Below, piece by piece: positions 14,758-58,822 of a stretch of 64,000 nt of DNA (position 1 is its first letter; each line of letters begins with the position of its first letter). A program made the position numbers and the translations under genes. The notes below the pieces were generated by a model. That model was not told the origin of the DNA, did not search any database, and worked only from the letters and a program-made list of their open reading frames with translations. The DNA is from Candidatus Flavonifractor intestinigallinarum (lineage in GTDB: Bacteria; Bacillota; Clostridia; Oscillospirales; Oscillospiraceae). The DNA is taken from positions 1-64,000 of the forward strand of contig DWXO01000021.1 of assembly GCA_019119165.1 (NCBI GenBank). Reading direction: 5' to 3'.

Positions 14758-14931
14758 AACGAGAGATTGAAACTATGCAAGATGCACAAATTTCCATATA
14801 AAAAGTTGTAGCTGCAACGGAGTGCTTTCGCGCACGGGCTGAATGGACATGGAATTCGGCTGGGTTGCGGACGCAACCTAGAAAAGAACGAATTTGTACT
14901 GTCCATTCCACCGGGAATGGGCAATTTTTTT
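14758..14931 (+). promoter_or_regulatory. Attenuator or riboswitch-like leader of ssnA
   Basis: The leader ends in an intrinsic terminator: GTCCATTCC (14901-14909), ACCG loop, GGAATGGGC (14914-14922) and seven T. The terminator's left arm TGTCCATTC (14900-14908) is fully complementary to GAATGGACA at 14841-14849, giving an alternative, antiterminating pair. Other stems are TGGGTTGC/GCAACCTA at 14861-14880, GTGC/GCAC at 14823-14835 and GTTG/CAAC at 14805-14818. This is the architecture of a riboswitch or protein-controlled attenuator. I could not assign it to a known aptamer class; a distant Moco-type RNA would fit the context but is not shown. Confidence 0.65.
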
Positions 14932-34992: not shown

Positions 34993-35045
34993 GGTGTTCA
35001 ATCTCCAATCATGCAATGTATTCTTGGTGTCTCGGAACAAGCTAC

Positions 35046-35101
35046 AGTATAGCTGCCGATTGTAAAGTTGTCCTTCAACGAATTGTAAAGAATGGGTAAA
35101 G
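35046..35101 (-). promoter_or_regulatory. Pho box and promoter of pstS
   Basis: Reading the minus strand, TTTACC (35100-35095), TTTACA (35089-35084), TTGAAG (35078-35073) and CTTTAC/TTTACA (35067-35061) recur every 11 bases, the PhoP/PhoB box pattern of Firmicutes. A -10 element TATACT (35051-35046) follows. The last repeats occupy the -35 region, as expected of an activated promoter. Two further TTTACA hits 22 bases apart on the plus strand (35128 and 35150) extend the site toward ppa. Confidence 0.85.
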
Positions 35102-57425: not shown

Positions 57426-58538
57426 ATGTCATATGGTGGATACAGACGTCCCGATGGGAACGGGGATTTAGGTTCCTGGATCGTGACGCTGATCCTGCTG
57501 GTCAGCCCCCTGTGGTTCGTGGGGCTGATCCTGCTGTTCCGCAAGCTGAACGCTCTGGGACGCAGGCCCCAATTCCCCTATCTGGGGCCCAGCCCCGGCA
57601 CCCAGGGAGTCCGTACCCCGCCGCCGGGGGCGGCGGGCCGGGGACTGGGCTTCGGCAAGGCCAAGGCCATGACCATCGGCGGAGCCGCCATGGCCATTCT
57701 CTTCGGTATCGCCACGGCGGCGGGCCTGCCGGTGGTGAGCAGCATCCTGGGCTTCCCTCTGTCCCTGGCGGCCATGTCCCCGGTGATTGGCCTGTGTACC
57801 GGCGGCCTGGCCCTTATGCTGGCGGGCAGCCTCAGTACCCGCAAGATCCGGCGGTTCCGGAAGTATCTGGCCCTCATCGGCCGGCGGGAGAGCGTGTCGG
57901 TGGTCCAGCTGGCCCACGCCATGCCGGTAAGCGTGCGGAAGGCGTGCAATGACTTGCAGGAGATGCTGGACCGGGGCATCCTGCCTGCGGGCTATCTGGA
58001 TATGTCCTCCCATCAGCTCATCCTCAGCGACGAGGGGCTGAAGGACGAGCCGGAGCCGGCGGCGGAGCCAGAGGCGCCCGACCAGGAAGAGGAGGAGCCT
58101 CTGGACATCCGGGACGACGACGCGGTGCTCCGGGAGATCCGCCGCCTCAACGACGATATCGACGATGCGGAGATGAGCCGCAAGATTGACCGGATCGGGG
58201 AGATTACCAGCAAGATTTACGGCTATGTAAAGCAGAATCCCAGCAAGGAGGGGCAGCTGCGCTCCTTCCTCAATTACTATCTGCCTACCACCCTGAAAAT
58301 CCTCAAGGCCTATGCCCGCATGGAGGACCAGGGCGTGGAGGGGGAGAACATCCGCACCGCCAAGGAGCGCATCGAGGGGATGATGGACAAGGTGGTGGAC
58401 GGCTTCGAGAAGCAGCTGGACCGCCTCTTTGAGGTGGACACCATGGACATCACCGCCGATGTGGAGGTGCTGGAGCGGATGCTGGAGAAAGACGGCCTGT
58501 CCGGCGGCATGGACTTTGGCCAGAAGGGTACTTCATAA
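57426..58538 (+). CDS. XpaC-like (5-bromo-4-chloroindolyl phosphate hydrolysis) family protein
   Basis: Encodes 370 residues. Membrane segments lie at about 18-38 and 80-130. A small winged-helix-like part (ESVSVVQLAHAMPVSVRKACNDLQEM) and a soluble domain follow, including SRKIDRIGEITSKIYGYV, QLRSFLNYYLPTTLKILKAYARM and VDGFEKQLDRLFEVDTMDI, which match the XpaC family. XpaC proteins are often next to TelA; no TelA is nearby. Function unknown. RBS AAAGGAG. Confidence 0.85.
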   Translation: MSYGGYRRPDGNGDLGSWIVTLILLVSPLWFVGLILLFRKLNALGRRPQFPYLGPSPGTQGVRTPPPGAAGRGLGFGKAKAMTIGGAAMAILFGIATAAGLPVVSSILGFPLSLAAMSPVIGLCTGGLALMLAGSLSTRKIRRFRKYLALIGRRESVSVVQLAHAMPVSVRKACNDLQEMLDRGILPAGYLDMSSHQLILSDEGLKDEPEPAAEPEAPDQEEEEPLDIRDDDAVLREIRRLNDDIDDAEMSRKIDRIGEITSKIYGYVKQNPSKEGQLRSFLNYYLPTTLKILKAYARMEDQGVEGENIRTAKERIEGMMDKVVDGFEKQLDRLFEVDTMDITADVEVLERMLEKDGLSGGMDFGQKGTS

Positions 58539-58572
58539 ATCGTTTACATAAGGTCCAAAAATTATCCATCAC

Positions 58573-58601
58573 TCGACAGGGGCGCTGTGGTATCTTATAA
58601 G
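58573..58601 (+). promoter_or_regulatory. Promoter of a candidate small RNA
   Basis: TCGACA (58573-58578, five of six matches) and TATAAG (58596-58601, five of six) are spaced by 17 bases. GCTGTG (58584-58589) and CACAGC (58602-58607) form an inverted repeat centred on the -10 element, a possible operator. No open frame of credible composition follows. Confidence 0.7.
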
Positions 58602-58607
58602 CACAGC

Positions 58608-58822
58608 CAAGCAAGACGGCAAGGGCGGCGCGCCGGGAGCGTGCGGAGGACAAATGCCATCCGGAGCGCGCTCAACAGACCGGCCCGCCCTTGTGACTGC
58701 CCCCCGGCTGTGGGGGCAGACCAAAGACAACACCTGGCTCTGCCGAGTGATGAAATACATCTGAATTCCTCCGCGTAAGCAAGGAAGCCCCGGACGGCTC
58801 TGCCGTCCGGGGCTTCCTTGTT
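58608..58822 (+). ncRNA. Candidate structured non-coding RNA
   Basis: From the promoter to a terminator-like hairpin this stretch of about 215 bases folds strongly. CAAGGGCGG near 58619 pairs with CCGCCCTTG near 58687-58695, GCCGG with CCGGC inside it, and GAGCGTGC with GCGCGCTC further in, ending in an internal loop; a second stem is CTGCCCCC/GGGGGCAG near 58698-58720. The hairpin AGGAAGCCCCGGACGGC/GCCGTCCGGGGCTTCCT (58782-58819) closes it. It lacks the SRP GGAAGGAAGCAGCC-type loop. 6S RNA remains possible in size but is not shown. Confidence 0.5.
58781..58822. terminator. Terminator-like hairpin between the RNA and the Big-domain gene
   Basis: AAGGAAGCCCCGGACGGC and GCCGTCCGGGGCTTCCTT make a near-perfect 18-bp stem around TCT. 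The flanking T-tracts are short on both strands (TTGTTGG on +, TTGCTTACG on -), so it may end both the candidate RNA and the convergent minus-strand gene. Confidence 0.75.

Follow-up and report, generated by a model that had tools for sequence, protein, structure and literature searches.

Comparative sequence analysis indicates that the window, that is, the whole stretch of 64,000 nucleotides analysed here, contains a real gene, equipped with a promoter and a terminator of its own, for a non-coding structured RNA that measures about 220 bases (Table 1). In our best reading, which we consider about 65% probable, the gene encodes a trans-acting regulatory small RNA that is activated by a response regulator and represses target mRNAs through anti-Shine-Dalgarno (anti-SD) pairing. 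The conservation of the gene, its covarying structure, the promoter layout, and the CU-tract small RNAs behind the same type of promoter were computed for this reading; we infer transcription, the identity of the regulator, the targets, and repression as the outcome. An initial annotation had proposed a candidate new structured RNA with promoter and terminator at this locus, and this proposal is supported by the single copy, covariation in several helices, changing gene neighbours, and the lack of an Rfam match.

Distribution and genomic context of the RNA gene

The RNA gene is present in one copy in every genus member, 20 genomes in all. When 149 related genomes were searched at the DNA level, the region was recovered from all 19 other genus members and from one genome of another genus (G038). 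A covariance model (R1), which was built from the sequences of the genus members and of G038 and matches positions 58603-58759 in the window, was then run against 301 sampled genomes of the family and found the RNA in 13 genomes outside the genus. One more carrier (G082) came from a search across the order with a model of the short form, so that the total outside the genus is 14 genomes from eight genera, all of which also have the 11-bp-repeat promoter described below. Beyond the family, this sparsely sampled and strictly filtered search yielded nothing convincing; its sole match there (L280) lacks the promoter and was not counted. One R1 match (L223) was dropped because it has no promoter and resembles coding sequence. 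Genome G320 carries two copies of the RNA (L219 and L225), and in G082 a second promoter of the same 11-bp-repeat type lies just upstream of the RNA gene.

The upstream neighbour gene in the window encodes a Halogen_Hydrol domain, and the downstream neighbour is a convergent gene for a Big_2 protein on the minus strand, which the terminator of the RNA may also serve. Among the neighbours in relatives, which were recognised by eye from their sequences, are acetate kinase, a major-facilitator transporter, PurL, RecR, and others. Because the neighbours vary between loci, the RNA is not the leader of one gene, and its gene is independent of any one neighbour. The locus combines the general features of a trans-acting small RNA, namely an independent gene, its own promoter and terminator, and no fixed neighbour. 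Strong hairpins on both strands and the convergence of the flanking genes would also fit a cis-acting leader, a miniature mobile element, or a mere GC-rich spacer with a bidirectional terminator, but the single copy per genome, the varying neighbours, the conserved promoter, and the covariation make any of these extremely improbable. A mobile inverted-repeat element had been considered in its own right, as a long-range stem in the single-sequence fold (58567/58757) hinted at terminal repeats. It was rejected because this stem is unconserved, its 3' strand forming P5 instead, and because the locus is single-copy. A contig scan with the same stem returned unrelated loci only, five of which were compared with the model and did not match it.

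The initial annotation could match the region to no RNA that it could name. An Rfam search found no known family at the gathering score, and a permissive setting (E up to 10) gave only sub-threshold matches in the RNA region, none of them to 6S RNA. The more distant members had no Rfam match either, and the models of RoxS/RsaE and FsrA matched at neither the gathering nor the permissive threshold. Identity with 6S RNA (RF00013), which the initial annotation had suggested checking, is ruled out by a separate 6S RNA gene on contig C13; such a gene is present, apart from the studied RNA, in all members of the genus. The RNA is thus covered by no Rfam family, and it is undescribed in the open-access literature searched, which yielded analogues. 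The only Rfam match in the window is an ssnA RNA motif (RF03031) at positions 14802-14850 on the plus strand.

Structure of the predicted transcript

Table 1 Features of the RNA gene and its promoter (positions in the window).
Feature	Position	Strand	Observations in relatives and basis
Four 11-bp direct repeats, presumed response-regulator sites	58532-58570	+	Register common to 31 of 32 aligned promoters
Repeat units TTCATA, TTTACA, TCCAAA, TCCATC	58532-58537, 58543-58548, 58554-58559, 58565-58570	+	
Extended −10 (TG 58588-58589, G, TATCTT 58591-58596)	58588-58596	+	
Inferred transcript, ~220 bases, start A58603	58603-58822	+	−10 position, invariant start, model match, terminator
Pseudoknot 5' strand ACAGCC, pairs with GGCTGT 58706-58711	58603-58608	+	3 of 6 pairs changed on both sides
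P2 (58620-58627 with 58686-58693), encloses P3	58620-58693	+	Two-sided changes in 8 of 8 pairs
P3	58633-58644 with 58666-58673 and 58680-58683	+	
GGAGGA-CAA-ATG, P3 apical region, imitation ribosome-binding site	58645-58656	+	In much, not all, of the genus
P4 hairpin CTGCCCCC/GGGGGCAG, loop CGGCTGT	58697-58719	+	In all members; two-sided changes in 5 of 7 pairs across genera
P5 hairpin CAC..GTG	58731-58749	+	Helix of the genus alignment; local pairing in relatives
TTCCTCC, candidate anti-SD seed	58766-58772	+	CCTCC in most close relatives
Terminator hairpin, 19 perfect pairs, loop TCT	58780-58820	+	Stem recurs in relatives with differing sequence

The features named in the initial annotation are all present in the sequence, and the predicted transcript folds far better than expected by chance. 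The minimum free energy of region 58603-58822 was −118.1 kcal/mol, compared with −86.5 ± 4.7 kcal/mol for dinucleotide shuffles (z = −6.7), and none of 200 shuffles folded as well. The closing hairpin that it reported is present as the terminator stem, to which a mechanical scan gave a partial match. Covariation analysis of the relatives revealed two-sided changes in P2, P4, and the pseudoknot. For P2 the count leans towards structure, as the genus alignment from which it comes was fitted to the structure; the covariation score of this alignment was 0.228, compared with 0.130 ± 0.009 in shuffles. Among 13 distinct sequences, the pseudoknot strands were ACAGCC/GGCUGU, GCAGUC/GRCUGC, ACAGCA/UGCUGU, and ACAGUC/GACUGG, the last with one mismatch. 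In these sequences 96.4% of the cells in the pseudoknot blocks pair, compared with 28-53% when the partner is slid, a favourable figure in that the blocks were assembled by hand by choosing the loop segment and contain few independent changes. Most other genera have a short form of about 80-100 bases up to the end of P5. The P2/P3 region is missing from most of these relatives, and the short form without it shows the core of the RNA.

Apart from one reservation, the initial annotation was right to see no credible reading frame in the region: GGAGGA and ATG in the apical region of P3 open a frame of 36 codons. Several relatives lack this frame or have it interrupted, and a coding gene was rejected because the frame from GGAGGA-N3-AUG is not conserved. 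An RNA of dual function, which would also encode a peptide from this start, has in its favour a good Shine-Dalgarno sequence and spacing and the retention of MPSxARSxxRPAxVTAPRLWGQT in about half of the genus. However, the frame is broken in L012, L013, L015, and L019, the start is missing in L021 and L023, the C-termini are unrelated, and the region is missing from the short forms in other genera, so that we regard such a peptide as very improbable. The imitation ribosome-binding site on the P3 hairpin also led to the idea that the long form of the genus is a sponge, in which GGAGGA-N3-AUG would capture CU-rich anti-SD small RNAs of the same promoter type. We deem this quite unlikely; if true, one RNA of the set would tune or shut off the others.

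Promoter architecture and candidate regulators

The promoter named in the initial annotation exists as hexamers TCGACA (58573-58578) and TATAAG (58596-58601), each with 5 of 6 matches and 17 bases apart, but its −35 element is unconserved (equivalents in relatives are, e.g., CCGATG, CCCCTG, and TGAATG) and the hexamers are slightly out of register. No sigma-70 site was listed at the locus by a mechanical promoter scan. Based on the conserved TG-n-TAnnnT and the start sequence ACAG, the functional −10 is most likely located at 58591-58596 and the start at A58603. In 19 non-redundant promoters the TG (−15/−14), T−12, A−11, and T−7 (TGnTAnnnT) are invariant, as is the RNA start ACAG (or GCAG) in the aligned members. 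The inverted repeat seen earlier over the −10, GCTGTG (58584-58589) and CACAGC (58602-58607), is present, with conservation limited to GTG/CAC. Regulation, which had been suspected from it, is supported, but the element is the upstream array of 11-bp repeats and not the inverted repeat. When the promoters are aligned on the RNA start, this array (TTYAYA-N5 type) has its units at −71, −60, −49, and −38 with the respective consensus sequences TTYAYA, TTYAYA, TTYAAA, and TCCAAC. At one locus (L216) the whole array lies one unit (11 bp) closer to the start, and the TG of the extended −10 is lost.

Phase-locked 11-bp repeats that replace a −35 element are typical for activators of the OmpR/PhoB family, as known for PhoB, and the promoter layout is apparently that of promoters activated by response regulators of this family. 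CiaR promoters also possess 11-bp-phased direct repeats ahead of the −10 (PMC3091779). The genome encodes 16 OmpR-type proteins. A CiaR-like recognition helix was found in three regulators, which is a lead only, and comparison with NCBIfam and solved structures gave no name for the response regulator.

Activation by PhoP/PhoB would place the RNA in the phosphate regulon, with its action at the RNA level unchanged from our best reading. Both a PhoB-type regulator and pstS are encoded within the window, and the pstS promoters of the genus contain TTTACA repeats with an 11-bp period, phased relative to the −10 as in the RNA promoters. However, when promoters were scored with a model of three repeats derived from the RNA promoters, those of pstS reached 0 to 15, and none exceeded 17.7, the highest background value in 1.8 million positions of unrelated genomes of mixed composition, whereas 15 of the 17 htrA promoters in the genus scored 19 to 26. 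We consider membership in the phosphate regulon unlikely. The pstS promoter in the window (35010-35100, minus strand) contains TTTACC/TTTACA/TTGAAG/TTTACA ahead of TATACT and is strongly conserved in the genus; these repeats are likely a Pho box.

Other genes with the same or a similar type of promoter

In addition to the studied RNA, a search of ten genomes with the repeat pattern only retrieved two other small-RNA genes, each present in several genomes of the genus. One family starts near GUCAGGA (L238, L245, L250, L253, L263) and includes a locus in the window's own genome (L155; contig C103, ~10820, minus strand) with the same promoter type, a CACTCCTCCTCTCTTCTCTCTC tract, and hairpins. 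The other (L226, L227, L228, L239, and L240 in relatives, position ~1500) consists of the 11-bp repeats, a GUGGU..ACCAC hairpin, CTCCTCTCTTTCCTCTCTTTTTC, and a terminator. Both contain CUCCUCUCUUUCCUCUC-like tracts followed by hairpins. A query with the second small-RNA family, taken from a relative, had no match in the genome to which the window belongs; as this genome is 86% complete, it may nevertheless contain the family. CU tracts of at least 12 bases followed 18 of the 25 best repeat sites, compared with 9% of random windows from the same loci, and a CU tract together with a strict perfect hairpin was found at 13 of these 25 sites, compared with 1.9% of random windows. The analysis thus yields a covariance model and a promoter signature that alone finds more small RNAs.

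Repeat sites also precede ABC exporter genes, VTC-domain genes, and an htrA gene, and the scores of the htrA promoters are suggestive of the same repeat type as that of the RNA. Promoters of trypsin-like/PDZ (HtrA-type) proteases (L175, 1500-1594; L297-L312; L314) contain a highly conserved 11-bp array that resembles the one of the RNA. Similar repeats at L258, L267, and L269 lie ahead of a tiny frame of about 25-30 codons with the shared sequence GSDVDxLIFGSxxxVIxSER, which is perhaps a conserved small protein. Upstream of ABC-transporter ATPase genes in two genomes (L265 and L268, different genera-level loci), the sequence TTCACA-N5-TTTACA-N5-TTTCAG was observed.

Anti-SD segment and proposed mode of action

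In distant members of the RNA family, the anti-SD position is taken by long CU tracts, which in some cases include CAU. The segment after P5 is CAUUUCUCCCUC at L215 and L217 and CAUUUUUACCUCCUCUC or nearly so at L219, L220, and L225, where the tract, CAU(U)nACCUCCUCUC, is complementary to an entire ribosome-binding site including its start codon. Complementarity to Shine-Dalgarno plus AUG is clear at these five loci. The segment is short in the genus; the window has UUCCUCC only, and in its single-sequence fold of lowest energy, part of the segment pairs with the 3' arm of P4. In eight genus members (L014, L015, L019-L024) the anti-SD segment is missing, a warning that the long form may have another role. 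This absence, together with the pseudoknot and P4 being the best conserved parts, would agree with a structured RNA that chiefly binds protein, having the pseudoknot and P4 as its functional core and an anti-SD stretch that is incidental in the genus. Such a role appears rather unlikely in view of the long CU tracts in distant members and the CU tracts of the further small RNAs behind this type of promoter.

According to our preferred reading as a regulatory small RNA, a response regulator of the OmpR/PhoB family, probably sensing envelope or related stress, would bind the four 11-bp repeats and activate the extended −10 promoter, which has no conserved −35. The RNA made from A58603 would fold into hairpins tied by the pseudoknot, in which the P4 loop pairs with the six bases at the 5' end, and its synthesis would end at the Rho-independent terminator. 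The stretch that follows P5 and precedes the terminator (UUCCUCC in the window) would then pair with Shine-Dalgarno sequences and block the translation of target mRNAs. If this is true, a whole bacterial family fires a set of anti-SD small RNAs via a two-component regulator.

Comparison with known RNA systems

The studied RNA is similar to 6S RNA in length and in its strong hairpins, but it has no central bubble, its promoter appears regulated, and the genus has its separate 6S gene. RoxS is controlled by a two-component regulator. In RoxS/RsaE and FsrA of Bacillus and Staphylococcus, C-rich single-stranded segments pair with Shine-Dalgarno sequences (PMC10433868). A C-rich segment with the potential to pair with Shine-Dalgarno sequences is a feature shared with the studied RNA, which differs in its regulator sites and matches these RNAs in neither sequence nor structure in Rfam searches.

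The csRNAs of Streptococcus are several small RNAs under the control of the CiaRH two-component system (PMC3091779). Shared features are the small-RNA set, an OmpR-family regulator (putative here), direct repeats spaced by 11 bp before the −10, and a terminator. The csRNAs also have an unpaired segment complementary to the Shine-Dalgarno sequence and, in some, to the start codon; a clear counterpart occurs at L215, L217, L219, L220, and L225, the window has only UUCCUCC, and eight genus members lack the segment. CiaR-dependent promoters are defined by NTTAAG-N5-TTTAAG (PMC3091779), whereas the RNA promoters contain, at the same 11-bp spacing, TTYAYA/TTYAAA repeats, usually four instead of the TTTAAG pair. 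The studied RNA is also longer, has a pseudoknot at its 5' end and, in the genus, a long inserted hairpin, and occurs in other bacteria; no sequence relation to the csRNAs was found. In our best reading, it would be one of a set of trans-acting small RNAs controlled by a response regulator, following a csRNA/RoxS-like logic as a separate family. If so, the CiaR/csRNA logic of streptococci has been reached here with different RNAs.
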